Origin: Xiphias gladius
Lineage: Eukaryota; Chordata; Actinopteri; Istiophoriformes; Xiphiidae
Direction of reading: 5' to 3'
Length of the DNA stretch: 64,000 nucleotides
Assembly (NCBI RefSeq): GCF_016859285.1
Contig: NC_053407.1
Coordinates: forward strand, 24,733,857-24,797,856
Part shown: in pieces, positions 3,947-63,639 of the stretch
Layout: every line of letters begins with the position of its first letter
Position numbering within the stretch: position 1 is the first letter of the stretch
Translations under genes and position numbers: made by a program
Notes under the pieces: generated by a model
Told to the model about the DNA's origin: nothing
Seen by the model: the letters and a program-made list of their open reading frames with translations, nothing else
Database searches by the model: none

Positions 3947-6295
3947 TCACCAGTGTCTGGACTCTATCAGCTCAGTTCGCAGGCTCAGTCTCTTCAGAGT
4001 CTCGTATCCCACCACGATGAGCACCGACGTGGGCGTGGAGGAAATGATGCGGGCTGACAGCCCCTTGGTCATGCCCCAGACGCCCTCCTCTACCAGCAGC
4101 TGCTTGAATGTCTCGGTAACAGATGATCGTCCCTCCACCTTCAACAGACAGGGAGGTGTTAAATCATCACCGTTATTTGCCAAAAAAGTGAGTTCATTCT
4201 TGACCTTGGAAACAAAATCTCACCAGAAGGTACATTTTATTTTCGAAAGCTCCAAAACAACTACTTAATGGATCTTGTGGTGAAATTGTTTCGTCATCGA
4301 ATTTTCTGGTGTATAGTTTGTCTCCAAGGACTAGAGGCAACATCTAATATAAGTCAGGAAAGGTTCTGCATGGTGGTTCTCTGTGGTCTTTGTTCTGAAT
4401 GTGTAAGCACTTAACTAAAACGAGGTTACTAGTGTTTACAGCTGTCAAGAAAGTGAAACTAATAAATGCTGCACTGCAATCAAGAGCAGGTTTCGAAATT
4501 ATTGAGCAATATTGTGTAAGCGCAGCTATAGAGAAAAAGAGCTAATGTCAGCTGCATTTGGTGTTGAGAGATCAGTGCAAGGAGGTTCTGATTTTTTTGG
4601 AAAACCATTGCAAAGTCCCAATGTTCAATGAGTCAACGAACCAGGAGTCAGTGGACAGTTGGAGAAAGATCAAGGAGGACATTCACATCCTCCCCCAAAG
4701 ACCGTCGTTAAATAAAGACAGGTTACAATCTGGCCCCAATATAAAAATCACCCGTTATCACACGACTAGGACGCTGTATGTGGGTCACGTGATAACAACT
4801 CAATCATCACCATAACAACCGAGCAAACTCCACCTGCTGATGTAGGTAAGAGATAAGAGATAGGGCCTGAAGCTTGGAAACATTTTTTTCCAGTGAGTGG
4901 ACCTTGTCCTAGGAAATTTCTACATCTGTTTCCATCTCCAACCTGCAAGCTAAAAGGACAAAAGTAGGTTTGCCAGGCAAGCCTTCCATGAACAAGACAT
5001 TAAACGTCTACCAGCTCAGGCACCGTACTCCTCACTAAGTCCAGTTTCAGTATGAGCCTTTTTTGTTAAACGCTGGCTTATTTCAAGTCATGTCATTTTA
5101 AGGGCATACAGAAGCTACACTCTCCCCTGACAACTGTGACCTAACAACACCTGCGCACCTTGTTCATTCCACTTTTCCAAGATTTAAATTTTGGTAAGTT
5201 CATTCGTCATTGAATGGCAGCCATCTCAGAAAAACCTGCCTAACGGAACGGAAAAAGGTGTTTACCTGTACTCTCGCTCGGACAACATCCATGGGGTTGG
5301 TGATGGTGGAGGCTGTCGCTGCTGCCATTGGTCCTGCCAAAGCCTGCAGAATCAGGTGGGGGCACTCGCTAGGTGCCAACAGGGACAGCTGCTCTGGGAA
5401 CACAAAAGATTTGAACACAGAGTGAGGCCAAAATATGTAACTTTAACAACGGTATTTTTCTCTTCTCGTAGATTTTTGCTGAAGCTGCATTTCCCCCCAA
5501 ACACTAACTTTTTATCTTGTGTAATTTTTATATATTTTGTCTTGATTACATTAGGCCAAATAAACTGGTGAGCTGGATTTCAGTCCACACTCTCATCATA
5601 TGCATGTAGCAGCTAAGGGAAGCCATTAACAGAAACCACAGCTAGCAAGGTGTTGATTTACCTGCATAAAAATGATAAAAAGGCCACCACAGTGCACTGT
5701 TTGGGATGTATGTGAGTAGCGACGCCACATAGCCCCTGTAAAATCCCCTGAATCCATCAGCTGCAAATATCTGCACCATAATTTCCCGCGTTTGCCCGAA
5801 AGTCAGTCGGCGCTTGGTTGATGCGAGCATCATTTTGGGCTTGGCCTTGAAGCGAGTGAGGTGTTCCCCCTGTCCTTGCATCATCAGGTGCTGCGACACC
5901 ACATCTATGGGCACAGTGATGGTCTGGGCCACCAGGGACGCTGCCCCTCCCGCCACCACGGACTTCACCGTGTTACTGGGCGAGTACTGGGACACGTACT
6001 TGCGCACCAGCTCATAGGTGGTGATATAAGCCTGTCCTGAGACTAGGGTGAACGTGTTGACCATGAATCCACGGTACAGGCCGCGCACTCCCTCTGCTCG
6101 CAGGATCTTGCAGAAAGCATCAAAGGTGCCGGAGTAGAGGGCCTTTCCCTTCTGCACCTGGAGGCGGGTTCGGATGAGGCTGGCCGGGTAGACCGTGGCC
6201 CGGGTGGTCAAGGTCATGAACACACCCAGGGAGTAAAACTTCCTCTTGTCAAGGTCCTCCCATTCGATAATTTGGATTGCGCCTTTCTGCTGCAT
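3947..6295 (-). CDS. slc25a44: SLC25A44, mitochondrial branched-chain amino-acid carrier
   Basis: Inner-membrane carrier of the SLC25 family; the mammalian orthologue imports branched-chain amino acids into mitochondria. Three coding exons on the minus strand: 5662-6295, 5266-5393 and 3947-4138. They join in frame to 317 aa (human about 314). Start is the first Met, 'MQQKGAIQIIEWEDLDKRKF', and the end is 'ELIESRHW'. The three carrier signatures are visible at residues 37-42 (PASLIR), 129-134 (PIDVVS) and 245-250 (PMDVVR). The first has Ser where most carriers have an acidic residue; the same Pro-hydroxyl departure is typical of this subfamily. 'GLYRGFMVNT' and 'GFYRGYVASLLTYIPNS' are near-identical to vertebrate SLC25A44. 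The first coding exon extends upstream to an acceptor at about 6370, implying a non-coding first exon further right. Fish can carry two slc25a44 copies; I cannot tell which this is. Confidence 0.94.
4139..5265 (-). other. slc25a44 intron 2
   Basis: 1.1-kb phase-0 intron with canonical ends. No gene, RNA or recognisable repeat could be supported. The adjoining intron 1 of the coding part (5394-5661) is also featureless. Confidence 0.8.
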
Positions 6296-6847
6296 GGTGC
6301 CGGGCAGGGCAGCGCTGTGCCCCTAGAGCCAGGTGTCTACAGTCATCAACCCTCCAACTGCCATCATACCTGTAAACCAAGAACACGCAGCTTATTCAAG
6401 CCCTGCGACCACATGCAAAGAAGCCGCTGGCTGCGCCCACATTTTCATTTATTTATTCATTCCTTCATTCAGAATTTGGACCTTAGATGACTGTCAGTCG
6501 ACATTATAGTAAGAGATCAGAGCTGAAATATTTAGTCAAATAAGTAAGTGTGAGGACTTGCTGCCTTTCTTCGTCTTATGATTGTCAACTGAACATCTTT
6601 GGATTTTGGATGTTACATCAACACCTTGGGCTCTAGGAGATTATAATGGCAATTTTTCGCACCTTTATAGTGAGATTTTACAGGGAAAAAATGATTCATC
6701 AGGAAAAGATTTTTTGCAGATTAATCAGTAATGAAGTCAATGACTAATTGCAGCCCTATACAAGATAGGAAACTATACCTTGATTATCAGAGCTGCATCG
6801 TAATGTATCAGTACAAAAGGCCTTCACTCAATGCAAATGAAGAATTA

Positions 6848-39000: not shown

Positions 39001-42000
39001 CTATCCACTATCTAATAATTGCAAACATACACCAATAAACACACTGGGAGGAAAAGAAAAAGCATTTTAAAGAAATGCCTCAGTATGACCATCTGTTTTT
39101 TTATTTGTAAATATAAGAACAGAATCTGTACCAACTAAAAATTCCCATATTGAGGCAGAAAAAAGTTGTAGAATCAGCAGTTTGTTTCCTGTATTTTCTG
39201 CCTTCATATTTCCTGTTTGATCATGCACCTGTTGAAGAGTTTTGTTGAGTGTGCATACCTCTCTTCTTGAACAAAACAAAATACCGAAAGTAGACTGACC
39301 CAACATTTTTATCCAAGGCCAGTGCAGATATCTGTTGTGCACACATGGCTACGAAGACACAAAATCACTACAAAGAGTCTGTGCCCAGGGACCCATTGAC
39401 TGGTCTCACATTTTATATGGGAGCATTCCCTCTATCACTAATCCTTCTCGTAGAACACTAAATCCTGATAATGTAACCAAAGAATAAAAGTAGTAGACCC
39501 ACCAGCAAAGATATCCGTCTCCTCTTCAGAGTGGACTCCATTGGTCTTGGAGTTGACGGTGCTGGCGTTGCTGATGCTGGGTGCTGTGGTGATTGCCTCT
39601 TCAGTGAAGATATCAGCAGGTTCTGCAGGATTACTCTCTTGCAGAGGCCCAGCTATGCTAAAACCATCACCAGCAGCAGCTTTGGTTGTGACAGGTTTGT
39701 CCTTCTGCTCTTTATTGATGGTTTTCTTTGAGGTGGCACCCAGCAGATCACCAAGCAGGTCCTCATCGGGTTCGCCAAAGAGGCTCTTCTGTGGCAGCTT
39801 GGCGGATTTAGTCTGCCATGGTTCTGCAAACAAGTCACTTCCCTCATCCTTGAACAGGTCGACTGTTGCCATGCTGGGTTTTTTGGGATCTGCAGCGGGT
39901 GGAGCATCACCAAGGAGGTCAACCAGAGGGTCAACAATTTTGTTAAAGCCAGGTGGCTGTTGGGTGTTACTGGCTGATGAATCACCACTGAAGTCGATAA
40001 TTGGAGCAGTGGAAGTGTCTTGTGCTTCCTGTTTTGCATCGGCAGGCGGATCTGTAACACTGCCTGTCACTTCACTTTTATCCGTTACTGCTTCAGCAGT
40101 AACATCCGCTACCGCCACTTCCTCTTGCAGTGCCTCAGTTTCACTTCCCAATATATCAACAAAATCATCTGAGGGTTCATCTAAAGAGATTTCAGTTGTG
40201 TCTTTTGCTGCAGCTGCGACTTTGTCAGCAGCAGCTTCGGCTACGTTGTTTGTTAGGTCAACGAAATCATCTGAGGGTTCACTGGCAACTTCACTTGCTG
40301 GCTTGTTTTCTGTTTGGCTGCTGATGGGCTCAATTAAGGGATCGTTCATGATGTCAGTGGGAGGCTTCATTAAAACATCACTGGGTTGACTGGCAGGTGG
40401 CAGTTTGGTGTCCGTTTCAGTCAGTGGAGGGTTGCTCTGGAGAACAGGTGAAAAGGGGAAAAAGGTTTAGAGTGCTTGAACAGTGCTGCAACCAACAATT
40501 ATCTGTCAATTTTTTTTTTGGATTAATCTTTAATCATCAAGAACAAAAAAAACAAAAAAAAGATTTCCTTGAGGCCAAAGTGATGTCTCCAATGTCTTGT
40601 TTTGTCCGACAAACTAGAACATATTCAACTTTCAATCCTGTTAAACAGTTTCTCAACAGTTTCTGTTGAGAAACTGGAACCATTGAATGTGTGGCATTTT
40701 GACTTGTAAATGACTAACATGATTAACTGATGATCAAAACTGCTTAAGTCAGCAATTAAAGGATTAGTCAATCAACCAAAACACTTCTTTTAATTTTTAA
40801 TCAATTACTCACTCCCAAAGCCTGACAGAAAGCGTTGTACTCTCTTTATATCATGAGGATCTGATCTTCTAAAGTTAATAACATTTCCTCATACCGTAAA
40901 AGTCAGCTAGAATAAATTGTCCATAAAACTTTTCTAAACTGTTTCTGCATCATACTCCAAGTCTCTGGTATTGGGTTGCATGGTCTTCATTTATTTTTAC
41001 TTTACTTTACTTTATTTTCACTATAATATCGCTAAAAACACAACTTCCACAAACTCATCAACCATGATCACAGTTTGCCGCACTATGATTAAAGGGGGTT
41101 TTAATGGCTTAAGGACAGGTATCAGGAAATATTAATGGATTTTAGGGGAATAAAACAGGCTTCAACAAACACGCTGTGTGACTAGTGTGCACTACACTTT
41201 AAAAATCAAAAAGTAAGTAGCTTGAAACTGAAGAAAAGCAATGACTTGCAGAAACATTTTATCATGTTTCAGAAACAGCTTCATTGGATGAATGCTCGCA
41301 AAGAAGTCTAATGCAGTTTAATGCAGTCTAGTGCTGCAAAAAAAATCCTACTTTCCTACAGGTTGTAATGTTCAGTTTTTGTTGAAACTTTTTGGAGATA
41401 GGTTTACTCAACTTTATAGTCTTCTTACAGGCTGTAGTATGTGGGGCTGTTGGACTGTATTGTGTGTGTGTTTTGTAGTCCACCCTAACAGAAGAAAACA
41501 TTCCGTTGGTCACACCTACTAAACTGTTAACGTCTTATCATAGGTTTTGTGTGCACTTGCCAGTCATGATGTTGAGTGAAACTAAGTGAACAGATTCTTA
41601 ACACAGTGCATCTGTGAAAAAAAGTCTAATCAAATGGTAAAATGTACAATTAGAGGCCAGAGTGAACTATAATGAGGTGATTAACATGGCTTTTTAATAT
41701 GAAAGGCCACTCTGAATCCGCTAACAACCACTGCTGGTCCACTTCCAAACATTACTTCATCTACAGGCTCTGTTAAATGTAACATCCACAACTGCTGACT
41801 AATGTTTTCCATGCAGCAGTGAGTCCAGCTCTCAAAAAAAAAAAAAAATATCAAAGACAGCAACTTTCCAATCTCTCCTCTGAACTTTGACTGTGGGAAA
41901 ACATCCGGGTTCTGACCATGTGATCACAGCTGACTCACATGACAGGAGGCTGCCTGAGCCAGCTTTTAATCCTCATTCAAAAAGAGTCTGAATTTTAACC

Positions 42001-43893
42001 CTCTGATAAACATGAAACAACGGAACATGAAATAACAGAATCACTACCCTGATGTCAGCTTTTACAAACAAACCACACAAACCATAATTCCTGAAGATTG
42101 TTAAGATCTGACTTCTGCTTGCTTTACCTACTATATGCATGGCCTATATGTCTGCACACCCAAATGCTGAGGACTTCAAATTTTTGGTTTTAGAAATGAC
42201 CAAAATGTTCTGCACAGACAACATCCACATGTCACTAACCAAATATAAAACTACATTAAAGAGTAGGGCTGCGAACAAGGATTATTTTTTATTATCGATT
42301 AATCTGCCAGTTGTTTTCTTGATTAATCGATTAGACAATGGTGACAGACACCCATCGCAACACCCTGGAGTCCAAGGCGACATCGTCAAACGTCTTATTT
42401 TTTTTAACCAACAGTCTAAAACCCCAAAACATTAAGCTTACAGCAATGTCAAACTATGAAGAGCACAAACACTCACATTTGTGAGCTTTGTCTAATAGAG
42501 CTGCAAATGATTTACAGCTCTATTAGACATTAGTCGATGTATTTAGGACCATGTACAATATTTAACATCAATTTTGATGCATTGTACCAGGGTTAGCCTG
42601 AGGCAAATTTTCATCTGCAATCCCATGGAAGGTCACAGTTAAAAACTTCCACACAGTGACGGCACAGCACTAAGCAAACTAGGCAAACAAGAAAAAACAC
42701 GTACCAAAAATGACAGACATTAATACATCACTCTCACTCTCACACAGACTCACTCTCACTTTCACATACACACCGTGAGCATGTTATACAAATTAAAAAC
42801 GAGGATATCTGAATTTTCCCAATTAATCTGATGATTATTTTTTCGATTAATCATTTAGTCTATGAATACTCAAAAAACTGTCCAAAATGCCCATCACAAC
42901 CTCGCAGAGCTGGATGCGACGTCTTCAAATGTCTCTTTTTGTGCGAGCAAAAGTCCAAATCCTTAAAAGTATTTAGTTTACCATGATATATAGAGAATAT
43001 TTGGCTCAGTTACACTATTTTTGCCTGAAAAATGACAAGGACTGCAACCAACAACTATTTTCATTTTTTTGATTATTTTTTTTCCGGTCGATTGTTTTGC
43101 CTACAAAAAGCCAGAAAATAGTGAAAAATGCCCGTAAATATTTCCCACAGGCCAAAGTGACATCTTTAAACGTCTTGATTTTGCTGACCAACCCTCAAAA
43201 ATTAGAGATGTCCGGTTTACTATCATGCATGACAAATAAAAGCTTCAAATCACCACATCTGAGAAGGATATTGGACGTTTCCGCCTATAAAATGACAAAA
43301 ACGAGTCTCCAATTATCAAACTCATTGCCAATTCATTTTCTGTCCGTCGACTAAAAGATTAATCGACCAATTGTTTCAGCTCTAGCTAGTTATATGGTTT
43401 GCTAATCGACCTGGTGAAATCACAGCCAGACAGTACTTCACATTGCAGCTGTTTTTTTTTTTAAAGCTGCAGACTCTCTGCATCAAAACCTCCGAAATGC
43501 TTAGATAATTTAAGCTGCAGTGAATACTTTGAGTGTAGCATTATCTGACATGACAGTTGTATATGCGAACATTATTTACTTACTGTTTTCTGTGCGGTAA
43601 GAATAGCAAAAATGTTGGTGGAAACCTCCCACAACTAAACCCAAACTTGCTGAAAGTGCCTCATTAGCTTTCTTCGCTGACGTTAGCTAAGTACCTTGGC
43701 AGTTAATGTCAGTTAGCCAAATCAGAGGCTAGTTAGCTACCGTGAAATCAACATTCAGGCTTACTGCGCTCATGAAGGGGTCGTCCCCGTCGTCTTCGTC
43801 GCTGTCTCGGCCTCCGACTTCTTCGGAGTCCAGCACATCTTGGTCCTCGGAGTCGGGGAACGGAGGAGGACTTCGCTCCGAGCTGGTCGCCAT
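31671..43893 (-). CDS. snx1: SNX1, sorting nexin 1 (SNX-BAR subunit of retromer/ESCPE-1)
   Basis: Endosomal PX-BAR protein that forms tubular carriers for endosome-to-Golgi retrieval. Coding exons 5' to 3': 43765-43893, 39503-40436, 37875-38011, 37499-37574, 37135-37178, 36725-36866, 36543-36621, 36349-36424, 35897-36010, 35079-35172, 34447-34652, 33767-33910, 32768-32848, 32604-32675, 31671-31721. They join in frame to 792 aa, against 522 in human. Residues 1-43 are acidic (ends '[10 protein letters not shown]'); 44-354 come from the giant exon 2; '[10 protein letters not shown]' near 355-364 is a SNX1 hallmark. PX domain about 412-538 with R454-R456 ('RRRFSDF') and P479-P482; amphipathic-helix linker '[21 protein letters not shown]'; then the BAR domain ('[17 protein letters not shown]', '[13 protein letters not shown]' end). 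SNX1 rather than SNX2 by the BAR text. Fish may have two copies; which one is unknown. Confidence 0.95.
31840..32140 (-). repeat. interspersed repeat, family B copy
   Basis: In minus orientation: 'TTCTCAATAGACAGAAAATTAATTAAC', 'GGGTTTTAGACTGCTGGTTGGACAAAACAAG', 'GAAGACGTTACTTTGG' and 'AATAATCGTTACTTGCCGCCCT' follow the family order. Lies in snx1 intron 14. Confidence 0.65.
32160..32185. repeat. poly-A run within snx1 intron 14
   Basis: About 24 A residues at the edge of a minus-strand family-B copy (about 31840-32140). Intron 14 (31722-32603) shows nothing else. Confidence 0.85.
35281..35324. repeat. perfect 16-bp inverted repeat (hairpin), snx1 intron 9
   Basis: Arms ACACTATCTTGTATGC (35281-35296) and its exact reverse complement (35309-35324) around a 12-base loop. 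Stem is too short for a typical pre-miRNA. Confidence 0.95.
36017..36088. repeat. (AC)n microsatellite at the snx1 exon-9 acceptor
   Basis: 36 AC units on + ((GT)n on the snx1 strand). It ends only six bases from the exon: on the minus strand it reads (GT)36 then CTTCAG and the exon starting '[12 protein letters not shown]'. Confidence 0.97.
38012..39502 (-). other. snx1 intron 2, with a SINE
   Basis: 1.5-kb phase-1 intron. It contains a tRNA-derived SINE-like repeat (about 38862-39040) and otherwise AT-rich sequence without a supported feature. Other snx1 introns above 300 bases (32849-33766, 33911-34446, 34653-35078, 35173-35896, 37575-37874) contain A/T runs but no gene. Confidence 0.65.
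38862..39040 (+). repeat. tRNA-derived SINE-like repeat
   Basis: Contains a Pol III B-box-like 'GGTTCAAGTCC' (about 38927-38937) followed by 'AACCGTAGCTC', 'ATGTCATGCCCTGTCTGTCTCC' and 'CATTTCCTGTCAGC', the order seen in a frequent fish SINE whose tail ends in AATAAA-like text (here 'CCAATAAACAC'). The A box is poorly preserved. Confidence 0.6.
39503..40436 (-). other. snx1: snx1 exon 2: enlarged acidic disordered N-terminal exon
   Basis: A single 934-base exon coding residues 44-354, low in hydrophobics and rich in Asp, Glu, Ala, Ser, Pro and Thr. It contains an exact octapeptide duplication 'EPSDDFVD' at residues 96-103 and 130-137. It also has recurrent Leu/Asp clusters: 'DPLVDLLGD' (212-220), '[11 protein letters not shown]' (236-246), '[10 protein letters not shown]' (267-276) and 'ADIF' (317-320). 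Both boundaries are canonical and the frame is open throughout. The reverse strand also has an open frame of 282 codons, explained by composition. Confidence 0.88.
40480..40780 (+). repeat. interspersed repeat, family B copy
   Basis: 'GTGCTGCAACCAACAATTATCTGTC', 'GGATTAATC', 'AAAGTGATGTCTCCAATGTCTTGTTTTGTCCGAC' and 'GGATTAGTCAATCAACC'. A perfect hairpin sits inside at 40646-40676. Confidence 0.65.
40646..40676. repeat. perfect 14-bp inverted repeat with 3-base loop
   Basis: Arms CAGTTTCTCAACAG (40646-40659) and CTGTTGAGAAACTG (40663-40676), loop TTT. Inside a family-B copy in snx1 intron 1. Confidence 0.95.
42265..42530 (+). repeat. family B copy ending in a perfect hairpin
   Basis: 'AGGGCTGCGAACAAGGATTATTTTTTATTATCGATTAATCTGCC...' is a family-B start. 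At 42490-42503 GTCTAATAGAGCTG is mirrored exactly at 42515-42528 around an 11-base loop, followed by 'ATTAGTCGATG'. Confidence 0.7.
43035..43390 (+). repeat. interspersed repeat, family B copy (best preserved)
   Basis: 'GGACTGCAACCAACAACTATTTTC', 'GGTCGATTGTTTTGCCTACAAAAAGCCAG', 'GTGAAAAATGCCCG', 'AAAGTGACATCTTTAAACGTCTTG', 'CTGACCAACCCTCAAAA' and 'TTCTGTCCGTCGAC...ATTAATCGACCAATTGTTTCAGCTCTA' give the full landmark set. Confidence 0.75.
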
Positions 43894-43945
43894 CTTCAAT
43901 CTTTTTTATCAAACACAAGGGGAGGTAACGTCAACCGCTCGCCAA

Positions 43946-43997
<52 letters not shown>

Positions 43998-44375
43998 TCA
44001 CTCACTCACTCACACACACACACACACACACACACCCGCGCAGGCAGGCAGGCAGACCGACCGACCGACCGACCTAAGCACTAAGGGCCGAAGCACTGCC
44101 GCTACACACTGAAGTAGTAGTTCACCTCGAGATCGGTCGAGGAAAAACGAGAACAGACTGCAAACCGGAGGCTCGGGACGTGCAAACGCGCCGCTGTCTA
44201 CTTACTTCCTGATCCTCCTCCTCCGTCTTCTTGTCAGGTTAGCTTCGGTCGATGTTAGCTAGCTGGGCAGTCATGGGACTGAAGCCGTAAATATGGACCA
44301 GGACAGGGGTGCAGCTGAAGTTAGCTAATCCGCACACAGCTCGGTGCCCATATTAGAGACATCCGACTTTGGGAG
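43894..44375. promoter_or_regulatory. bidirectional promoter interval of snx1 (-) and the SV2-like gene (+)
   Basis: Only 482 bases separate the two divergent start codons. The left part (43954-44073) is a chain of tandem repeats: (CA)n, (CACT)n, (CA)n, (CAGG)n and (GACC)n. The right part is CpG-rich ('CGAGATCGGTCGAGG', 'GTGCAAACGCGCCGC') with an ETS-like ACTTCCTGATCC near 44203 and no TATA box. Both 5' UTRs must lie here or begin in upstream exons. In-frame TAG at 44322-44324 shows that the SV2-like protein does not start further upstream in this exon. Confidence 0.6.
43954..44073. repeat. compound microsatellite cluster
   Basis: (CA)n at 43955-43993, (CACT/CTCA)n at about 43991-44012, (CA)n to about 44034, then (CAGG)n at 44041-44054 and (GACC)n at 44055-44073. 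Confidence 0.93.
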
Positions 44376-47300
44376 ATGTCTCGTCACATGCGAACCGGAG
44401 ATGCGGAGGCGTTGCGGCCGCTTCTTCTCGCCGGAGATCACCTGCCAAGCGAGCTGGACTCAGACGAAGGTAAACTCAGTGCCGCTCCATCACTTCAGCA
44501 TTGACTGTGCTTTAAGCGGTGCCGGGAGAAGTACTCGGACGCTTTGCTTGGGTAAAACTACCAATACGTTGATGTGAACATACTCTGTTACAAGTGAAAG
44601 CACTGCACTTAAAATCCTGCTTCAGTGAAAGTATGAAAGTGTCTTCAGCAAAATGTAGATAACGAATCACGAGTACAAGTACTGGCCTTGCCCTGCAAGT
44701 TATCGCTGCTGGAGAGTAACGAAGTATATTTACTCAAGTATTTTAAGTGAACACAATCTTGAGGAACTCGTACCTCACTTGAGTGTTTATATTTGATGTC
44801 ACTGCAACACAGCTGCAACTTAATGGATTAATCGATTAGTAGATCGACAGGAAAATTAATCTGCGACTATTTTCATAATCGAATAATCGTTGTAGTAATT
44901 TCTTACGCAAAAAATGCCGAAGATTTGATGGTTCCACCTTCTCAGATGTGAGAATTTGACACTTGTCTTTGTTGCACATGATACCAAACGGGCTGCCTTT
45001 GGGGGTTTTTTTGTGGGTCCTGGTCAGCCAAGACACAATTGATCAATCAAGAAAACAATCAGCAGATTGATCGATAATGAAAATAATTGTTTGTTCCCAA
45101 ACAGCAGAATGAAAAGTACGGTGCAGCTTGGGTGCAGTGCAAGATACGAATACAGGTCCCCGCGTTCCCTTGCTCCGGGTTGTATGTGCGGTGATTAGTT
45201 TATGGTAATTTGGTGTAAAACAACATTATTTAGGAATATGCACCATGTGAACACAATCTAAACTAAAATTATCAATGTTTTAGGACTAGATTTAGACACA
45301 GGGACTCTCTAAGAGGACAAGGCCACAAGGTTAGTGGCACAGTTTCTCAAACAAATTTGCAAGTAATGATATCAGCAAAAAGCAACAGGCGCACACACAC
45401 ACACACACACACAGTGAACCTGGGAGCCCCGCATGTGTATCATTGAAAATCTTTAACCTAATTTTAAATATCCTAAAAACCACACCTGTTATCTGTAATG
45501 ACAGTTTCTTCTGCATGAGAGGAGCTGTGGAGGGAAGCTATCATTTCATTTATGCTAAGTTTGTGGCCTTGATTTTTGCACCAACAAAGTAAAGGTCTAA
45601 AGCCACTGCTATGTCTTTAATACCTCCTCTATCTTGAGCTTACATTTCACCTGACCTGTTTGCGTGTACGTTTTGCTGCTCCACAGGTGAAATCATTTTT
45701 GACAGGAGCGCGTCAAACATCAAACGTGAAGCCGGGGGGAGTGCAAACAGAAGGTTAACATATGAGGAAGCAGTGGAGGAAGCAGGTAATCTACCCTTTC
45801 GATTGTGCGGTAGTTACTTTTGCCCGTATGTTTTGTCATGATAAGTAACGTCAGATGTGAGGTTAAACATATTTGTGATAAGTCAACGCACTGTGTTCTT
45901 GGTGTTGAGGATTTAAATATCTCACTGTAAACTGGAGGAGCAGGAGCATTCATTGCGTGGGCCTGTAGAACTCAAAATGTTTTGTTTTTTTTTTTCAGCT
46001 GAAAAAGACATTGTCCATAAGCTTTTTTTAATAGTCTATGAAAAATAAGATTTATAGAAATACCAGGATATGACCCAGTAGTGAGCAATGAGAATACAGC
46101 ATATTCATAATAATCTTTTCACCCCAGTTTCTGCCACATTAGATTGAACTGTATATTTAAACTTATACATCCTGACATATTTGTTCAGCAGTATAAATGC
46201 AGTTCAATGTTACTTGCAACTTTGGTGTGTAATAGTGAGGTGTCAGGTTATCATAATGGGCAGGGCAGCTGGACTACATGGCTGTTGACTGTATGCAAAA
46301 TAGGCCAACAAAAAACCAGAGGATCCTGTGATAGCTAACTTCTCTCTGTGTTTATTTCCTCTTTGTCCTGCTTCTGCTCACAGGTTTTGGTTTGTTTCAC
46401 TGGCTACTGTTGGTGGTTTGTGGCTGGGCCAACGCCAGCGACGCTGTGGAGATTCTCTGTGTGTCTTTTCTCCTGCCAACGGCGCGCTGTGATCTGCTGC
46501 TGAGCTCTTCAGACATGGGCCTGCTGACAGCCAGCATTTTCCTGGGTGAATCACAGTCATTTAATAAACCAGTTAGCGTACCTGAGCTGGCACGGGACAC
46601 CTGCGAAGGCAGTAACAGAAAACCCGGGACAACAACATGTCTCCAGTGGGCAGTGGCATCGTTCTCATACTTCTTCAAAATCTTGTATCCGTCAAAGTAA
46701 ATGTAAACAAAGTTGTCTTAATGGCATTAAAAACTGATGAAAAACTTGGATACTAGGTACAAGGGGCAGTTGGACACACAAAGATTAAAAACTAGGTTTT
46801 AAAATGTTTTCAAAGTCTGAACTTTAACTATCCAGTCCACTTGTAAAATTAACAAACAAAAGGAAAATGAAAATATAGTTTGTTTTTCCTGGTCCAAGCA
46901 AGTTAAAAAATATATTTTCAGTATTAATGTTAGCAGACTTCAGGAATAATTTATGATTTATAATTATTTGTATTACATAATACTTGTTGCAAATACAGGC
47001 AGACTTGCTGTTTTAAGCATCTTGTGACATTTATTAACCTTTATGATTAGAAACTGTACCAAAAATGATAAAGCTAGAACTGGAATCAATAACCAAACTA
47101 AAATCCTAAAAGACTGAAACTAACAAATGCACAGTGTAAAGCAAATAAAACTAAACTGAACAGACAGAGTATTCAAAAATAAAAGGAAGGAAAAATCCCA
47201 AATTTTAATAGCTACTATTGTGAATCTTAAGTTAGTTAAAAGTGTAAGTACAAGTGTAAGTTCAAGAACTAAAATGTTAAAAGGAAAATAAAGTGTCCAT

Positions 47301-50300
47301 GAAATGTGAATTTAGTTTGAATGAAATGACAGATATCAACTTATTTGACAAACAAATCAGTATATTACTGTCTTGTCATACTCATATTCTTAATTCCTGT
47401 TTTCTAGGAATGATGGTGGGTGGCTATATGTGGGGGTACTTGGCCGACCAGAGGGGGCGTCGCAGAGTCTTGGTTGTGTCCCTGACAGTAAACGGGGTGT
47501 TTGGAGCTCTGGCCAGCGTGGCTCCGTGGTTCTGGCTCTTCTTGCTGCTGCGGTTCATCAGCGGCATCGGGTGAGCACATGATTGGCTTTTTTTGTTTTA
47601 CATTTATTATTCTCGTGGTAATCATTAACTAACAGCCACACACTCAATCAAGTCTACTTTAGTGGTTAGAAAGACCATCCTGCAACCAACGGGTCATTTT
47701 AATGCTTCACTGAAAGACATTTTGGAAAAAAGAATCACAGAAGTGGTTTAAATTACTTTGGGTAAATTAGGGCTGCAACTAAAAACCATTTTCATCGATG
47801 AATTTGGTGATCATTTTCTCAATTAATCGTTTTGTCTATAAAATGCCAGAACATAGAGAAAATTTGCCAGACTCAGACTTTTATCCGACCAACGCTCCAA
47901 AACTCAAAACACATTCGTCTTCTGTTCATACATGACAAAGAAAAGCAGCAAATCCTCACAATTAAGGAGCTGAAACCAGACAATATTGGGGTTTTTTTTT
48001 TTTTTGCTTGAAAAATTATTGAAAAAATTAATTGATTATAGAAATTGCTACTGATTAATTTTCTGAGACTAAATCAATTGACTAAAAGGTAAATGAAAAG
48101 GCCAGGATATGCCTCCAAAATGAATCAAGTTTTGGCAAAACCGACTAGAATTCAAGGATAAAAGTTCGAGGATAAATGTTGATTTCCTCCCCCCCTGTAG
48201 GGTCGGCGGGTCGATCCCTGTTATCTTCTCCTACTTCTCCGAGTTTATGCCCCGACTGAGGAGAGGGGCAATGATCAGCGCCCTTGCCACCTTCTGGATG
48301 GCAGGAAACATCCTGGCTGCAGGTGGGAGTCAACATAAATTCCTAAAACAGTGTCAGTGTGTGTTGCGGGATACAACATACCATAAAAGTTGTGAGTTGT
48401 AAGTGCTGCCGCCACTGATATTGTGGAAAAACCTCAGTCACATGCTAAGAGTGTTTAGTGTGTATTATTTAGCACATTATCTTGTTTAGACAAACAGAAA
48501 TTCTCTCCAAGTTTTCCTTTATTCATTTTTTATTATTATTATTATTATTATAGTTATAGTTAGTTTGTAAGTCTTCTTATTATATGTTAAATTGATTGAA
48601 TAACAGTTTAAAAAGTTTAAAAACAACAACCATTATTTTGTTAGCATTTTAACAACAACATACTGTTTCCCATGCGTCTGTCACAGCTTAGATGTTGTAG
48701 ATTTCATGTTTGAAAAGCAAAAAAACACCCTAAAAATAAAACTTTGAGACATTTTTCACTTTTCTTTTTTCCCCTATTTGGGCATTTTGCTTTTATTTGA
48801 TAGAGAAGGTAGAGATAAAGACGGGAAGAAAGGAGAGAGGGGGCAGACCCAACATCATATAGTAGAATACATTATTTATGTTATTTACATCAGGTTGATC
48901 TTTTTATTATCTGTCCCTACAAATAGATCTAGAAATGGTGGCAGAAATCCCAGAGCTGGATCTCTACTACGTTTAATCAATGAGTCCTGGCCCTAAAAAA
49001 TTCAAACAAAGATTTAGACTATTAAACTTTCGAGTGAAAGAAGTAAGTTCCTTGTCAGGCACTATCAAAATAAGACAAAAATGACAGAATTCTGAAATGG
49101 AAAAATCAATAGCAGCCTGCGTTGAGCAGTGAGGGACTGTGTGTGTTTTTTGGCTGCAGGTCTGGCCTGGCTGGTGATTCCCAGGACCTGGGCACGTTTT
49201 TCTCTGGGAAAACTGGACTTCCAGAGCTGGAGACTATTTGTGGTGCTCTGTTCCGTTCCCAGCCTCACCTCAGCCCTCCTCTTCGGGCTGCTCATGCCTG
49301 AAAGCCCCAAGTTCCTCATGGAGGTATTCCAATGCGGTACTCGAGTGCTTGCGTCGGCAGGATGCTTTTTGCCCTGACCTGTCTTTGATATTTTTACCCT
49401 GTCTTTGCCAGGCTGGTCGGGAGAAGGAGGCGATCCACGTTTTCAGATTGATGTTTGAGCTGAACATGAAGGGAAGGGGAAAGGCTTTTCCGGTATGAAC
49501 TTCCTGTATGCCTGGATGGATTTGTCGTCTTTGCTTGGTGTACAGATTTAACTGGTTTTCATCTTAATTAGACGATGATTAAGCAAAGAAGTGAAGTGGT
49601 GATGATACAGAGATAAATCAGTAGAGGTGTATAACACAAGCCAACCACAAAAACATATGAAAGGCAAAGACACAATAGATTAATGAATTTACAAAAGCAG
49701 AACAAAAGGTGGAATCAAAAGGTTCTCTAAACACGTCCTTTATGGCTTCAGTAATACATACAGGACTTACAGTACTGCCGTAAGTGTAATGACTCTACTC
49801 TTGTTCTAATCCAATCCTTTTTTGGCAGGAATTTGGTTTGTGTACGAGCTCCAGGCAAAGAGGGGAACTGGAGGAGTACGGAACTTGGGGTTCATGTAGA
49901 GAGCGACTCGCCAGCGTTTTAAAGAAGGTAATGTCACGCACTCAGACAAAGCCATGACTGGACATCCAGAGAGATGATTTAGAGGTTGCCGGAGTCAAAC
50001 AGCAACTGCAGAGGAGAGTAAAAGCACATTTTTTTTCCCCCTCCTGATGTCACTCGGAGCATCGTTTTGACCAATGTGTTACCCTGTGTTTCTTCGTGGT
50101 ACCTGAAGCAGATCAACAGGCTGTGGGGCCCCATGGCCAGAACTTGAGGACTGGGCCCCATTAACATCCCGCTCCTCCTCCTCCCTGTGCAGAGTGTGTA
50201 GTTTGTCTGTGCTGTAAAATTACCTGGGTTCGGGTTCAGGGCTGCGAGTAAACCCGGTTGCCCGATGAACCCGGTTATGTTTTATCATCAGTTTATCTTC

Positions 50301-53300
50301 TGACGATTTCCTCGATCAATTTAACGTCAAGAATAGCAGCAAATCAGAAAAGGCGGTAATCGGGCCCAGATAAACCCACCGGGGGGCTGCGGGGCAGAAA
50401 TTAACTAAATATATCCTATCCTGCTCCCACAACCGCCGTCCCAAATTTAGTTTCTGATCATTTGATTATCTAAAATGTATCTATAAACACGCACACTGTG
50501 AACATAATATCAACCGAAATATAAAATGTATTTAACTGGATTTTGACGGATAAAACCAGGCCTCAGGATTAGGTAAAGAAGCGGGAGCCACTGTAAGACT
50601 CAGTCATGGTACTTCAGTGTTTGTTGTACTTCAGTGGTGCATATTCCCAAACAAGTTTGCATTCAATCCGAGTACCACAAACCAGCGGCCAACTGCCACT
50701 GTGCTTCTGGGGCTTTTTTTTTTTTTTTTTTTTTTTAAAAAGGGTTATTCCTTTTTATAACAACAGCCTTTCATTGTTGAGTGTTGATTAATTATTTCCT
50801 TTTGATTCAACGGGGTCATTTGAAATCCTCTCTTTGGTTTAACCTGCAGGGCTTGGAGCCCATGAAACAGATGTTTAGGGGTTCACTCAAATCCAGGAGC
50901 ATCACTCTGCTCATCATCTTCTACTGCATCTCCTTCAGGTGAGAAATCCCGTCCGTCCGTCCACATTCAAAATACTGGGGTCCTCCTCCGTACCTCTGTT
51001 GTCGCGACGCGTGTTTGAACTCTGCTAATGTGACAAAACTACCGCCAGCAGCTCTGCAGCTTTAGAGGGAGAGAGAGAGAGAGAACTGATGGAAACATTT
51101 TATTGTCGTCAGCCAGAAATCATGTTGCGTAACTGCAAAAGCCTGCTCAAAAAGATGTTAGTCTTTACCAACCTGTCCGTGAGGCGTCATACCAAAGGAT
51201 AGTGACCAGTTACCAGAAAGTCTAATACCAGTGACTCCAGTTTCATTTTCTGAACATGCTGACTCACTGCTGTTTGGGAGACAGCAGTGAGTCAGCCCCA
51301 GTGTGGGACTTAGATAAAGCCAGGTATGATATTACATTAAAAAACAAACTACTTTATCCTTAAATCTCCTTTTAATGGGTGTGTCTGCAGTTACTACGGG
51401 CTGTGGATGTGGTTCCCGGAGCTGTTTGCGAGAGTTGAGGACGGCGGCTCGCCCTGCGCCAACGTGTCCCTCCCGTCGCCGCTTCGCAACCAGAGCTGCT
51501 ACCCGGTCAAGACAGCAGGTGTGTTTCCGGGATAACGAAGAATTTATGCTGAGTTTACTGCCGCCCGCTCTCTTCTTCCGGCCGGTGAGCACAGAACTGA
51601 ACGCGAAGCTTTACATTCAGAGCTCATCCGTGGGAAATAAACCAGAAAACAAGGTCAAGGCTGAGAATGAGATTAAAATAAATAATTGTTAAATTATCTT
51701 TACCTGCAGCTGACTACACATTTTATTTACCCTGTCATCTTGTAAAATTGCTCCTCATAGAGTAATATTAGCTGAAATAGTGTGAAAGTATATAATATAA
51801 TCTTCAAATACACTGTGCAGTGGAGCACCAAGTGCAAAAAGTGATAACAGGGGACAAAACAAAACCATGATCCCTCACACAGGTGACTTAGAGACTCTGA
51901 ACTGCCCTTAAGTTTGAATGTGTTGTCTACATACGTGCTATGACCTGCCTGGGTAATGCTTTATTTTATGAGCGTGTAATTCCCTTTGTAATTTTCAAGA
52001 CGTTTCCTGGAAAGAACTATATCATTTCATTCTGATTACAGGGCAAATAGGGGCAGCGGTCAGTTTGTGCAGCTCCAGTTAATTGGTAGCGTAACCTAGA
52101 GACCAACCTACCCTGATAGTAAATGGTAATAAAAAAAAATGAATGAGGAATGTATATTTATTTGGATTTACACTGCACATTTCTCTATAATTAGTACCAA
52201 ATTAGTTATTTTCAGGAAAACTACTGACACATAAATGAAATGTTACCACTCGTACTGTACTTGTATAAGAGGGGTTAGAATATCGGTTGGTGGGCGTCTC
52301 TTTATTTCATCCCCACTTTCCTCCCTGTGTCTGTTCCTCACCCGACAGTGTACGTGGAGGGCTTCGTCGTCGCTGCATCAAACCTGCCCGGCAACATCTT
52401 CACCATCCTGGTGATGGACAGCACCGGAGGAAAGGCGCTGCTGTGTGAGTCTGTTGTTCGTAAAATGCTATGTGTCATAGCTCAATTTGGGGGATGTGTT
52501 GAGATGCAGCGGCTGTCTGAAATGAAGTTTTGCATCCACTCTCCCAAGGGTCAGTGATAGATAGATCATTGACTTCTCTCAGCACACTTCATCTTTAACG
52601 GTAGGTGAATACTTTTCCGAAACGAAACCTCAGTTGTACTGTTGGGCTAGGGCGGAGTGTGTCTTCTTCACTTTCCCCGTCTAGATTTTGTCAGCCTAGA
52701 ATTAAGACAGTTACCGCCGCGCCTGGGATTAAAAAGAGAAATAAATAATCTGTGGGCGAACATCAGCGCCGACCTCATTTTAGAAAGGTGACTGATCAGA
52801 GTGGACGTCCAACATAAATTTCCAGTGAGTAGTTACGTTAAAAAAAAAAAAAAGCTAAATACTTTTTTTTTTTTTTGTCTTTACTTTACTATTTTACTAT
52901 TATTTTAACTTCATTGAGAATGATCATTTTTAGCAGTGGCAAGTTGGGAAAGTTTGTTCCTAAATAGGGCGCAGGCAGGCTGTAGGTTTTTAAAGGGGGA
53001 AAATCTCAGTGCTTGAACAATCAATCACTTTGGTCAGTTGTATTGATCAACAACTCCAGCAGCCACCCACAGCTGGGTAGACACTCTCTGCTTAATCAAT
53101 AAATGCCTCAATCCCATACGTCAGAATGGCATCTTAGACACGGTTACCACGCCATGAACCCTCGCACCCGACGTCTGATCTTAAATCTCTTGTCGTCTCT
53201 GCTTTGTCTCCAGCCTGCAGCCTGGTGGTGTCCAGTCTGAGTGTCTTCCTCATCTACGTGGTCCAGACCAGAGACCAGAGTCTGCTCCTTTCCTGTGTCT

Positions 53301-54456
53301 TCAGCGGCGTGTCCGTGATCGCCTGGAACGCCCTGGACGTGGTGGGAACGGAGCTCTACCCGACGCAGCTACGGTACCTCGTCTTAAAACTATATCTCAA
53401 GTTCAACAGGGTCCATAGAAGCGGCTTAAGGGTACCCCGTGCAGCTTTTGACCACGAAGAAGACTGCGAGCTCGTGAACAGGGATTTTAAAAAAATGCGG
53501 GTTTCAAACTTCAAACGAAAAATCGTCTTTGCAAACGTGTTACGCGGAAGCACGCTGCATTTAACATGTAATTTAGACCTCGAGATTTCAGACAAAGGGT
53601 TTTGGTGAGTAACTGTGAATGTAAACACAACTTTAAGAGAAAACCCCACATGGCATCTTTTTAGTTTTTATTTTTTTTTCTGTTTTTCACTTAAAAGGCT
53701 TTTATTTTCAAATTTGGATATCATTTTTTTTCTGGGGTTTTATTTAGCCGCCAAGAGACCTGCCAGTGGGTCTCACGATAAATCTAAGGGCTGAGATTTT
53801 TGCTGTTTTTCTTCGGGCCTCCAGAAATCCAAGCCAAAAAGATTGGGAAGCATTGCTACAGGTTACATTGGAGAAATCCAGTTAAATGTTCTCAAGGTCT
53901 CAGACGCGGTTTTGATACTTCCACTGTACTACTGGAAGGGTTTTATTGGCATTTTTTAACGTTTGCGCCTATGATCTATGCTGCTTTATTTACTTGCCTT
54001 TTTTTCTTTTTTCTTTTTTTTTTTTTTTTAGCAAAGATAACATAACATTTTCCTCTTTTCAGAATAAGCAGTTTCTGCTATACAGACAGCACTGGGACAA
54101 ACATAAAGGAGGCGGCGACAAGTTAAATGTCTTTAATTTTTACAGTCGTGCAATACAAGGATTTAGTTTTGTCAGAGGAACTTTTTAAGTTGAGGTTATG
54201 CACATATTAAAGTAGGTAAATAAAACACAGATGCTCACATGTCCTCATTAACCGTGTCTTTCTCGCTTTTAGGTCCTCTGCTCTTGGTTTCTTCACCGGC
54301 GTGGGCCGAGTGGCAGCGATCACGGGCAACGTAGTCTTCGGAAAGTTGGTGGACACGAACTGCGCCGTACCGGTCCTGCTGGTCTCCGCTCTGCTGATGA
54401 CCGGAGGACTGGTGGCTCTTCTGCTCCCACAGACCCGGCAGACCGAGCTCACCTGA
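44376..54456 (+). CDS. SV2-family MFS transporter, short form (546 aa)
   Basis: Major-facilitator membrane protein of the synaptic-vesicle-glycoprotein-2 branch; substrate unknown. 13 coding exons: 44376-44469, 45687-45785, 46384-46545, 47408-47570, 48201-48322, 49160-49323, 49412-49492, 49829-49927, 50850-50938, 51391-51518, 52349-52444, 53214-53373, 54273-54456; all phases join to 546 aa. A hydrophilic N-terminus of about 65 residues precedes TM1. SV2 signatures: 'GMMVGGYMWGYLADQRGRR' (119-137), 'VGGSIPVIFSYFSEF' (174-188), 'PESPKF' (260-265), 'SYYGLWMWFP' (358-367), 'LPGNIFTILVMD' and 'WNALDVVGTELYP' (470-482). SV2A-C are about 680-740 aa with a large luminal domain between TM7 and TM8; here only about 30 residues (372-400) stand there, with two N-glycosylation sequons (N382, N391) and two Cys (380, 394). 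In length it resembles SVOP, but the residues are SV2-like. I do not know an established symbol. Confidence 0.88.
44518..44790 (+). repeat. interspersed TIR repeat, family A copy
   Basis: 'GGTGCCGGGAGAAGTACTCGG', 'GTTACAAGTGAAAGCACTGCACTTAAAATCCTGC', 'CTTCAGCAAAATGTAG' and 'TTTACTCAAGTATTTTAAG' match the landmarks of the copies near 9.2-12.1 kb and 55.6-56.0 kb. Confidence 0.65.
44815..45090 (-). repeat. interspersed repeat, family B copy
   Basis: Minus orientation: 'GGATTAATCGATTAGTAGATCGACAGGAAAATTAATCTGCGACTATTTTC...' at the left and 'AACAATCAGCAGATTGATCGATAATGAAAATAATTG' at the right. Confidence 0.7.
45391..45413. repeat. (CA)n microsatellite
   Basis: About 11 CA units in intron 1 of the SV2-like gene. 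Confidence 0.93.
46546..47407 (+). other. intron 3 of the SV2-like gene
   Basis: 0.86-kb AT-rich phase-1 intron, no supported feature. Intron 2 (45786-46383) is likewise empty apart from a T run near 45990. Confidence 0.75.
47768..48085 (+). repeat. interspersed repeat, family B copy
   Basis: In intron 4 of the SV2-like gene: 'GGGCTGCAACTAAAAACCATTTTC', 'ATTTTCTCAATTAATCGTTTTGTCTATAAAATGCC', 'AGCAGCAAATCC' and 'CTGATTAATTTTCTGAG'. Confidence 0.75.
48323..49159 (+). other. intron 5 of the SV2-like gene
   Basis: 0.84-kb intron with a (TTA)n run at about 48530-48552 and a minus-strand SINE-like fragment at about 48775-48990. Confidence 0.65.
48775..48990 (-). repeat. SINE-like repeat, minus orientation
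   Basis: 'TTTTATTTGATAGAGAAGGTAGAG...GGAAGAAAGGAGAGAGGGGG' is the reverse-complement look of the same SINE family as the copy at 38862-39040, followed by degraded text. Confidence 0.5.
49928..50849 (+). other. intron 8 of the SV2-like gene
   Basis: 0.9-kb intron. It has a poly-T run at about 50714-50736 and otherwise no supported feature. Confidence 0.7.
51258..51296. repeat. perfect 16-bp inverted repeat with 7-base loop
   Basis: Arms GCTGACTCACTGCTGT (51258-51273) and its exact reverse complement (51281-51296), loop TTGGGAG, in intron 9 of the SV2-like gene. Confidence 0.95.
51519..52348 (+). other. intron 10 of the SV2-like gene
   Basis: 0.83 kb, AT-rich, nothing supported. Introns 11 (52445-53213) and 12 (53374-54272) contain only A/T runs (about 52841-52876 and 54000-54030). 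Intron 12's 5' part stays open in frame for about 78 codons but has no SV2 similarity. Confidence 0.7.
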
Positions 54457-61240: not shown

Positions 61241-63639
61241 CTGCAGGGGGGGGGGGGTGAGCAGAGCTCCGATGTTAGCTGCTGCTTGTCTTCTCCCAGT
61301 AGCCAAAAAAAAAACCAAGCAGTTATTATGAATAACTGTACATAACAGGGTGCTGCTTCTACCGGTGTGGGGACTCAGTACAGTGCGGATTTATCCAAGA
61401 AAGAAAATAAAATCAATCATTTTTCAGGTTTATCTACCAGCTACAAACATATACAGTATTATACTCAGATACTGTATATATGTCCTAAAACTGCAGCGAT
61501 TTCTGCATCACCACGAGCGATTCTTACAGGTCCTCTGTGGGACGGATGTGATGCTTACCACATCCATAAAGTACAAAATGCCCCTTAAATTTAACCTGGA
61601 AATGTACTGATGCCTCCCACAGAACACAGTAGAGGAGCGACTCAGTTTTCCCGCTGAATGCACAGCACGAAAGAGGCAAATGTGCGCGCTTCCCGCCTAG
61701 TTCAATGCCCAATCAATTTCCACTGTGGTACTGTGAGATGGAGAAGTTCTTCCAAAGAGGCATCTTTCTCCCCAGGAACTACTGGAAGTGGATGCCTCCC
61801 AGTAAGCACTGATTTTTGGTGATTTGCAGGTCAGACGACATCAGGACGTCCAGTTGAAAACCTGGCTGAAAAATGAATGTATATTGTGTGTGTCTTTAGG
61901 TTTTGGACTGTTCGGACAGAACAAGCCATCTGAAGACGGCATCTCGGGAATTTAGCCCCGAGTTTTCTGACTTGAATTTGTGCCTTTTGCCTGTGGATTA
62001 CAATAGAAAACGTTTTAAAATAAAACACTTTGATTCTGAACTGGCTGAGAGAGGGAGCAGCGGAAGAGAGATCAAAGTGAGCGAGCGAAGAAAAATAAAA
62101 CATTATTGTCATTATTATCCGACTGTTTCACGGAGGTTATGTCATAAAACAAATAACTAACCATCAGACTCTCAGCAGAATGTCTCTGTGGGGACTCTGG
62201 AGATTTCAGTCTCCATCAGAGCCACGCAACAGTAAATAATGATTTAAAAAAAAAAAAAAAATGCTCAGAAATGACTTTTAATTCCTAGAGTAGTTCCTCT
62301 GGTTCTACAGCTCCCGGGACTTTTTTGGCTGAAAAGGGGCTAAAGCTTTGCCTTAGGGGGGGCCTGAGCCAAAAAGGCTGTGAAACATGGGAATAAACGA
62401 ATGATCAGTTCAATAAAAAACAATCAGCAGATTAATCTCTCATGAAAATAATTGTTAGTTGCAGCCTTACACAGAACTACACCTTTAAATATGGTCATTA
62501 AAACTAAGACGTCTAAAAAAAGCTCTTATATTTATATAACAAGAGTTTATCAAATGTGACCACGTGAAAGGGGGGTCGCTCATAATGAAGAACCTGAATC
62601 CCCTCGGCTCTGCGGAGTTTCAGCTCACTGCTTCAGCTTTTCCGAGCCGCAACTTCAAACTCTCTCCGCTCACATAGCGTCGTTTTTCGGATGTGGCAGG
62701 CAGCTGTTTTCAGTGAACAAGCTTTAAAAAAAAAAAAAAAAAAAAAAAAACCCACCGAGCACTACCTGCTCCCCACCAAACAGCAGACGGACGCGGTCAC
62801 AGACCAGCTGGTGAACACAGTGGAGCATTTAGCAGCTAAAGAGCCTGACGTTTCCCTCAGGAGGTGGTAGAAAAACAAAAACCGAGCTAAGAGCGCGAAT
62901 GCTGGGCTTAGACTCATCAGGTGGCCAGGAAACAGGAATGTCGAATGCTAATGTTGCCATATAAACTTTGGAGGTGGTGATACGTCGGTGTTGTGTTGAC
63001 GGCGTGTTTCCGCTGCCCCCACTGGCCTTAAAAAAAAAAGTCAGTTATTGCAGGTTTAACCGGATACAGCCTGGTTTTAACGTTGATTTCAAGAGGCCTT
63101 TTGACCTGCAAATCACATTTTAAAAAAAAAAAAAATCTGTGCTTACAAAGTCTGAATATACAACAAACCATTCAGACAAAAAAAAAAAAAAAAAAAAATG
63201 CATTGTGACATTGCAATACTTCAGGTTCATTTCAGCAAGTTTGAAAGCTCAGATAACAGAAAGATGAACGATGGTGCAAGTGATCGAGTGCTGCTCTCAG
63301 CCTGATGTTTTGGGGGGGTTTTTTTGTTTTTTTTGAAGAGTGAATCAGGATCAGTGGATGAGCATGTCCAGTCATTCCCGGTGGTAGCAGAGTGTGAGTG
63401 GCCTTTGGAAGATGCACTTCAGCACAGGTGAGTCCGTTCTGCAGCTACAGACCCCGGAGATGCAGTTAGGTGTGAGATTACCAAGGCAGGGGGAGGGGAG
63501 GAGGAGGGGGAGTCAGCAGGAGGCGTTAGGGGAAGGCGGACGAGGGTTAGGAGGGGAGTGGGGGTCTGTGTGAGGCTGGCTAAAAGGCAGGTGGGCACAC
63601 AGACGGCTGGGAAGGACAAATCTCTCAAAGCCAACTTAC
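61241..63639 (-). other. ap3b2 intron upstream of the GMNE exon
   Basis: 2.4-kb phase-1 intron. It holds A-rich runs (about 62243-62260, 62725-62750, 63180-63198) and fragments of a minus-strand family-B repeat (about 61900-61960 and 62395-62468). Just upstream of the acceptor a G run on + (61242-61257) provides the C-rich pyrimidine tract. Confidence 0.6.

Follow-up and report, generated by a model that had tools for sequence, protein, structure and literature searches.

The stretch analysed here, 64,000 nucleotides of the swordfish genome (Xiphias gladius, NC_053407.1, positions 24,733,857 to 24,797,856 of the forward strand; hereafter the window), lies on the contig designated C8 of a 691-Mb assembly and carries, on its plus strand at window positions 44376–54456, a gene for a transporter of the major facilitator superfamily (MFS) that is related to the synaptic vesicle proteins SV2A, SV2B and SV2C. 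Its 13 exons join into one intact frame of 546 amino acids plus a stop codon, with GT-AG borders at 12/12 introns and agreeing phases, as an earlier note made from the sequence alone had claimed; the SV2-like core motifs quoted there are likewise present. Identical exons were recovered when the joined protein was aligned back onto the DNA with a purpose-written spliced aligner. In the same way, exons 3–6 and 12 were recovered exactly, and the rest partly, by each of four relatives, namely two fish SV2s, one fish SVOP and a sequence that we take to be human SV2A. The GC content at third codon positions (GC3) of the gene is 0.72 against an intron GC content of 0.38, and that of eight related genes is 0.58–0.76. 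The parts of the gene, with transmembrane (TM) helices numbered by homology, are listed below in window positions.

44376–44469 (+): exon 1, presumed start codon and cytoplasmic N-terminus (joined model, spliced alignment)
45687–45785 (+): exon 2, cytoplasmic N-terminus to TM1 (joined model, spliced alignment)
46384–46545 (+): exon 3, TM1 into TM2, with D84, E87 and F93 (SV2A D179, E182 and F188) (model, spliced and residue alignment)
47408–47570 (+): exon 4, MFS motif GYLADQRGRRR, TM2–TM4; following intron common to SV2 genes (phase 2)
48201–48322 (+): exon 5, GGSIPVIFSYFSEF, with I178, F182 and W205 (SV2A I273, F277 and W300)
49160–49323 (+): exon 6, TM5–TM6; following intron common to SV2 genes (phase 0)
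49412–49492 (+): exon 7, central cytoplasmic loop; following intron at most three columns from an SV2 intron of the same phase
49829–49927 (+): exon 8, central cytoplasmic loop; following intron common to SV2 genes (phase 0)
50850–50938 (+): exon 9, into TM7; following intron common to SV2 genes (phase 2)
51391–51518 (+): exon 10, end of TM7 with Y359 and Y360 (SV2A Y461 and Y462), and the mini-loop
51422–51517 (+): mini-loop between TM7 and TM8, residues 369–400 with C380, N382, N391 and C394, where SV2s have the luminal domain (positions derived from the exon table)
52349–52444 (+): exon 11, TM8; following intron common to SV2 genes (phase 1)
53214–53373 (+): exon 12, TM9–TM10, WNALD motif with W470, N471 and D474 (SV2A W666, N667 and D670); following intron common to SV2 genes (phase 2)
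54273–54456 (+): exon 13, TM11–TM12 and stop codon

The protein scores above the gathering threshold of both Pfam MFS_1 (115.3 against 33.4 bits) and Sugar_tr (99.1 against 22.3 bits), which places it in the MFS. Among NCBIfam models, TIGR01299 (SV2) ranks first (E 8.8e-110), with a score of 367.7 bits that lies under the curated cut-off of 637.3. The best solved-structure matches are SV2B (E 2.5e-99) and then SV2A, and the SV2B alignment covers residues 56–375 and 401–543, jumping the luminal domain. Twelve TM helices are predicted by homology; twelve separate peaks were not resolved by a crude hydropathy scan. The gene is an intact MFS protein gene, probably of the SV2 clade.

The same genome, the one vertebrate genome covered by the comparison, contains five long SV2 genes, namely two SV2A (contigs C24 and C22), two SV2C (C20 and C19) and one SV2B (C1), together with two SVOP genes (C19 and C20) and one SVOPL-like gene (C2). 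These names follow a 13-row tree, and the SVOPL label is given only by the place of that gene next to SVOP. A second close copy of the window gene was not found among 51 candidates scored, the next-best matches (down to E 0.023) being exons of the five SV2 genes at 34–49% identity, and the gene appears to be single-copy in this genome. The second SVOP gene (C20:13123900-13128100) evolves faster than the SVOP gene on C19, with a branch of 0.41 against 0.08.

Phylogenetic position and intron positions

The core tree was built from 13 rows and 468 columns, without the columns that are empty in the window protein and hence without the luminal domain. In this unrooted tree, SV2A/B/C were grouped without the window protein at a support of 100/100, on a stem of 0.88 changes per column that exceeds the splits among A, B and C. 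When the long rows SVOPL_C2, SV2_C1 and SVOP_C20 were dropped, the same group was recovered, again without the window protein, at 99/99. Approximately unbiased (AU) tests rejected a union of the window protein with SV2B (p 0.0004), SV2A (0.0005), SV2C (0.0005) or fish SV2B alone (0.0006), each of which, when forced, costs 24–28 log units. Because the 13-row tree is unrooted and contains long rows, an Escherichia coli outgroup (mhpT, yaaU and ygcS; 438 columns) was added, with a partial fish MFS frame included in one of three runs. In the rooted trees the window protein joined SV2A/B/C with a support of 96/99 with the fish frame, 95/99 without it and 87/97 (a value not starred) when SVOPL was left out as well. 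In the same order of runs, AU tests gave p values of 0.002, 0.009 and 0.02 against a union of the window protein with SVOP, and of 0.001, 0.008 and 0.02 against a place outside SV2 plus SVOP. The joining point of mhpT was poorly supported (bootstrap 40–47), and a search for bacterial relatives by means of a degenerate pattern gave 156 pattern matches, none of which was confirmed. Over the core, the window protein is 36–39% identical to the SV2s versus 26–29% to SVOP and SVOPL; its highest identity is to SV2B (39–40%).

The introns are a witness of SV2 kinship that is independent of the tree. With each of the five SV2 genes, 6 of the 12 window introns are identical in both alignment column and phase, and 7 of the 12 agree within three columns, whereas comparison with the three SVOP/SVOPL genes gave no exact match and one within three columns, where chance gives a mean of about 0.6. 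Over 20,000 random placements per gene, exact matches never rose above three. In a second, pairwise alignment, 6, 5 and 7 exact introns were found with the three SV2 genes tried and none with the one SVOP tried. The window gene has SV2-type introns at these positions, and its remaining introns differ from those of the SV2 genes.

The TM7–TM8 loop, ligand pocket and N-terminus

The alignment stretch bounded by SV2A D470 and V597 is 32 residues long in the window protein, 124–126 in the five fish SV2s and SV2A, and 30–35 in the four SVOP/SVOPL rows; the SV2B row from the PDB, in which the region is missing, was excluded from this count. The mini-loop holds sequons at N382 and N391 and cysteines at C380 and C394, which bears out the loop of about 30 residues with two sequons and two cysteines described in the earlier note; a third sequon, N81, falls in TM1. 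The available part of PMC5438990 gives at least three sequons for the SV2 family, as against two in the mini-loop. A long extra exon between exons 9 and 11, which that note had named as an observation that would overturn its claim, was looked for in the genomic DNA and not found, since spliced alignment and tblastn returned nothing above chance for a luminal-domain exon in introns 9 and 10 or in the rest of the window. The best tblastn value for the luminal domain at the window gene was E 1.7, and at the three SVOP/SVOPL loci none was better than 0.67. As a positive control, the luminal domains of the five fish SV2s matched each other's loci in 20/20 comparisons (E <= 3.4e-12). In spliced alignment at the locus, three SV2 queries padded the loop with junk, which contained an in-frame stop in two of the three. 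In SV2 genes three exons contribute to the luminal domain, the middle one entirely, the one before it with its last part and the one after it with its first part. The window gene and the SV2 genes have in common the introns on either side of the loop (475/2 and 646/1, as alignment column/phase), and the loop region is therefore homologous between them; the two introns inside the SV2 domain (531/2 and 576/1) are both absent from the window gene. Because the SVOP and SVOPL loops are also short, the absence of the domain would most simply be ancestral, with one gain in the SV2A/B/C stem explaining the loop pattern.

The SV2A residues mapped onto the alignment, with roles as given in the available parts of PMC11026379 and PMC12663137, comprise 16 orthosteric, three TM1/TM4 and seven allosteric or gate positions. 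Nine of the 16 orthosteric residues are identical in the window protein, including W300, W666, D670, Y461, Y462 and N667, in comparison with four in each of the SVOP rows and six in SVOPL. The racetam-pocket triad of SV2A W300, W666 and D670 is kept as W205, W470 and D474. This triad is complete in 6/7 SV2 rows, the fish SV2B being without D670, and in the four SVOP/SVOPL rows F or Y stands for W666 and Y or F for D670. The changes at the other seven orthosteric positions, given below, speak for a pocket that would be related but not identical to that of SV2A. The long, domain-bearing fish SV2B (C1:8370001-8390000) departs from SV2A by Q for D670, H for Y462, Y for F277 and D for E182. Judged by aligned residues, this true SV2 has lost the racetam anchor, which is retained in the domain-free window protein.

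The N-terminus of about 65 amino acids, judged by reading of the sequence and the alignment, has no counterpart of the acidic stretch around Thr84 of SV2. The first tyrosine is Y57, and because none precedes it there is no YxxPhi endocytosis motif; both the Thr84 region and the tyrosine-based AP-2 motif of the SV2 family are thus lacking. In the available part of PMC4746236, the Thr84 stretch binds synaptotagmin-1 and the tyrosine motif serves endocytosis through AP-2.

Alternative origins of the gene

From gene structure, domain absence, tree position, common introns and conserved pocket residues, all of which are shown here, the window gene is probably a separate MFS paralogue of the SV2 clade, one that branched off ahead of the separation of A, B and C and, on the simplest view, ahead of the gain of the luminal beta-helix domain and the long N-terminal tail. 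The earlier note had left two possibilities, a separate SV2 paralogue or an SV2B-related copy that lost the loop; tree, introns and pocket residues support the former. Several observations weigh against it. The end branch of the window protein is long (0.74), and 10 of 48 columns invariant across the 11 other rows are lost in it. SV2 and SVOP are fixed for different states at 28 sites; the window protein has the SV2 state at 9 of these, the SVOP state at 6 and neither at 13. Seven of the 16 orthosteric residues are changed (L176N, C297A, W454F, I663V, F686L, N690T and K694R) and only two of the seven allosteric or gate residues (F188 and M301) survive, and the binding of substrate and drugs may accordingly not be the same as in SV2A. 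The TM1/TM4 charges D179/E182/R262 are kept, but they are also present in the SVOPs (with D179 replaced by E in SVOPL), so this network does not tell SV2 from SVOP.

That the gene is a fast-evolving copy of SV2B (or of A or C) with a secondarily lost luminal domain would fit the best solved-structure match and the highest identity, which both point to SV2B, and SV2B and SNX1, the type of the neighbouring gene, both lie on human 15q. However, all four groupings tried were rejected (p 0.0004–0.0006), the SV2A/B/C group excludes the window protein with or without the long rows, SVOP states stand at 6 diagnostic sites, three introns (one behind residue 31, one behind residue 64 and one where the mini-loop ends) occur in none of the five SV2 genes, and the long first exon of the SV2 genes is missing. 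We regard this origin as very unlikely; with SV2B it is rejected at an AU p of 0.0004, and an ancestral state is the better reading of the short loop. Membership in the SVOP/SVOPL clade, which is likewise without the luminal domain, is equally hard to sustain. The loop lengths are alike (32 versus 30–35), residues such as A60, F66 and P158 are held in common, and in the unrooted tree the window protein and SVOP lie on the side of the branch opposite SV2A/B/C, but the intron match with SVOP/SVOPL (0/12 exact, 1/12 near) is close to chance, identity is 26–29% versus 36–39% to the SV2s, rooted AU tests are unfavourable to an SVOP union (p 0.002–0.02), and W666/D670, F/Y and Y/F in 4/4 SVOP/SVOPL rows, are kept in the window protein. 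A position inside SVOP, named beforehand by the earlier note as an outcome that would contradict it, was not found in the trees with SV2A–C, SVOP and SVOPL.

The loss of invariant columns could also suggest a decaying pseudogene or a wrongly joined model, but such an explanation is scarcely credible in view of the open frame across 13 exons, the intact splice sites, the GC3 of 0.72 and the conserved pocket and MFS motifs; SVOPL lost 20/68 columns on a like count, yet its modelled frame is still open. More room must be given to a deep secondary loss, in which the common ancestor of SV2A/B/C and the window gene had the luminal domain and the window gene lost it before A, B and C separated. The tree position alone permits this history, the shared introns 475/2 and 646/1 flank the loop such that one block could have been removed, and N-x-S-L followed by NQ in the mini-loop resembles the first SV2 sequon (N-F-T-L-E-N-Q) in the alignment. 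It requires both a gain and a loss where a single gain suffices, however, and neither the domain-internal introns 531/2 and 576/1 nor a detectable remnant of the domain is present in the window gene; we consider it rather unlikely.

Neighbouring genes, proposed function and known systems

An SNX1-type gene adjoins the window gene head-to-head on the minus strand, in keeping with the neighbour described previously, and the presumed start codons are 483 bp apart.

43893–44376 (no strand): intergenic space from the SNX1 start (43893, minus; picked by eye) to the window-gene start, likely a shared two-way CpG-rich promoter

The observed/expected CpG ratio is 0.90 over 43601–44600 versus 0.58 for the window, and a (CA)n tract lies at about 43955–44035 between the two start codons. 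The neighbour was called SNX1 by its match to a sequence that is presumably human SNX1, and it also has a Vps5-domain exon; two more loci, on C1 and C19, match SNX1 and may be SNX2 or a second SNX1. Its N-terminal open frame (39441–40466, minus) is 342 amino acids long with repeated acidic stretches, and the end of this frame gives a weak, sub-threshold match to the sorting nexin N-terminal domain (E 0.0027); human SNX1 has about 140 residues ahead of the PX domain. Human CIAO2A is head-to-head with SNX1, and here CIAO2A lies 5.4 Mb from the SNX1-type gene on the same contig. Either the neighbourhood was rearranged or the gene was lost from the SNX1-adjacent spot in mammals. The best RE1/NRSF-like site in the window gene had seven mismatches, no better than its shuffles (six to seven), and those of SV2B on C1 (six) and the SVOP/SVOPL loci (six to seven) were also no better than shuffles. 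Sites that beat their own shuffles were found in SV2A on C22 (two mismatches), SV2C on C20 (three), SV2C on C19 (four) and SV2A on C24 (five); with three shuffles per locus, the scan gives a lead only. Because the promoter would be shared with SNX1 and an RE1-like site was not seen, there is a faint hint of broad rather than neuron-only expression. Elsewhere in the window are a mitochondrial carrier exon that is SLC25A44-like by eye (5645–6322, minus), a gene of the aconitase/iron-regulatory-protein family (about 15.7–24 kb, plus) and a frame weakly similar to the GREB1 helicase-like domain (62598–62867, plus; E 5.3e-05, 22.5 bits, cut-off 26.2).

Most likely, the window protein is an SV2-type transporter of a vesicle or other endomembrane that lacks the synaptic additions; its mini-loop would face the lumen. 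A small organic solute may be moved by alternating access through a central cavity lined, like that of SV2A, by W205, Y359, Y360, W470, N471 and D474. F93 could serve as the luminal gate, and the D84/E87/R167 network may couple TM1 to TM4. In the available part of PMC11026379, SV2A has no settled substrate, and its C198 (TM1–TM2 loop) is close to C583 (domain–TM8 linker), with no disulfide in the authors' preparation. In the window protein, C100 of the TM1–TM2 loop could form a pair with one of the two mini-loop cysteines, C380 or C394. With neither luminal domain nor Thr84 region nor tyrosine motif, the protein should not act as a synaptotagmin-retrieval partner; it may instead perform the ancestral transport job, probably across a broader set of cells.

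The window gene bears on the solute transported by SV2 and on the role of its luminal domain and synaptotagmin-binding tail. A natural SV2-clade protein that has the triad but neither domain nor tail sets the transporter job apart from the synaptic additions, could be used for testing whether substrates and racetams bind, and suggests the sequence in which a brain drug target was assembled. The epilepsy drug levetiracetam acts on SV2. Because the gene appears to be single-copy here, it should be easy to knock out. More tentatively, with somewhat less than even confidence, the gene could be what vertebrates have kept of the stem SV2 lineage, perhaps in continuity with arthropod SV2-like genes. 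If true, the levetiracetam-type pocket and alternating-access core would predate the luminal domain and tail, which the line leading to SV2A/B/C acquired later, and mammals would have lost the whole domain-free SV2 class. The name "SV2D" was not found in the open-access papers searched, and a fourth vertebrate SV2 did not stand out among the open-access matches listed; fish models of the gene are probably in databases under some name.

Compared with known systems, SV2A, SV2B and SV2C (SLC22B1–3; TIGR01299) are alike in an MFS core that is 36–39% identical, in the W300/W666/D670 triad and in six exact introns. In contrast to them, the window protein lacks the luminal domain (32 versus 124–126 residues), the long acidic N-terminus with the Thr84 region and the YxxPhi motif, stands outside the A/B/C group and scores below the TIGR01299 cut-off. 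SVOP and SVOPL (SLC22B4–5) share the short TM7–TM8 loop, a core that is 26–29% identical and the TM1/TM4 charge network, but have no exact introns in common with the window gene, do not conserve W666/D670 and form a separate clade when rooted. Fly SV2-like proteins probably have a short loop. Names such as "SV2B/2C/2A-like" occur in 13 open-access papers, of which 12, to judge by title, concern arthropods and one carp; a transcript from carp gut, annotated as svop and as "SV2C-like [A. mexicanus]" in the available part of PMC6218049, may be an orthologue of the window gene. The arthropod "SV2B-like" genes, for example fly CG3168 and ten SV2A-related fly proteins, are SV2-related MFS proteins named after SV2 in the available parts of PMC7358622 and PMC5627054.

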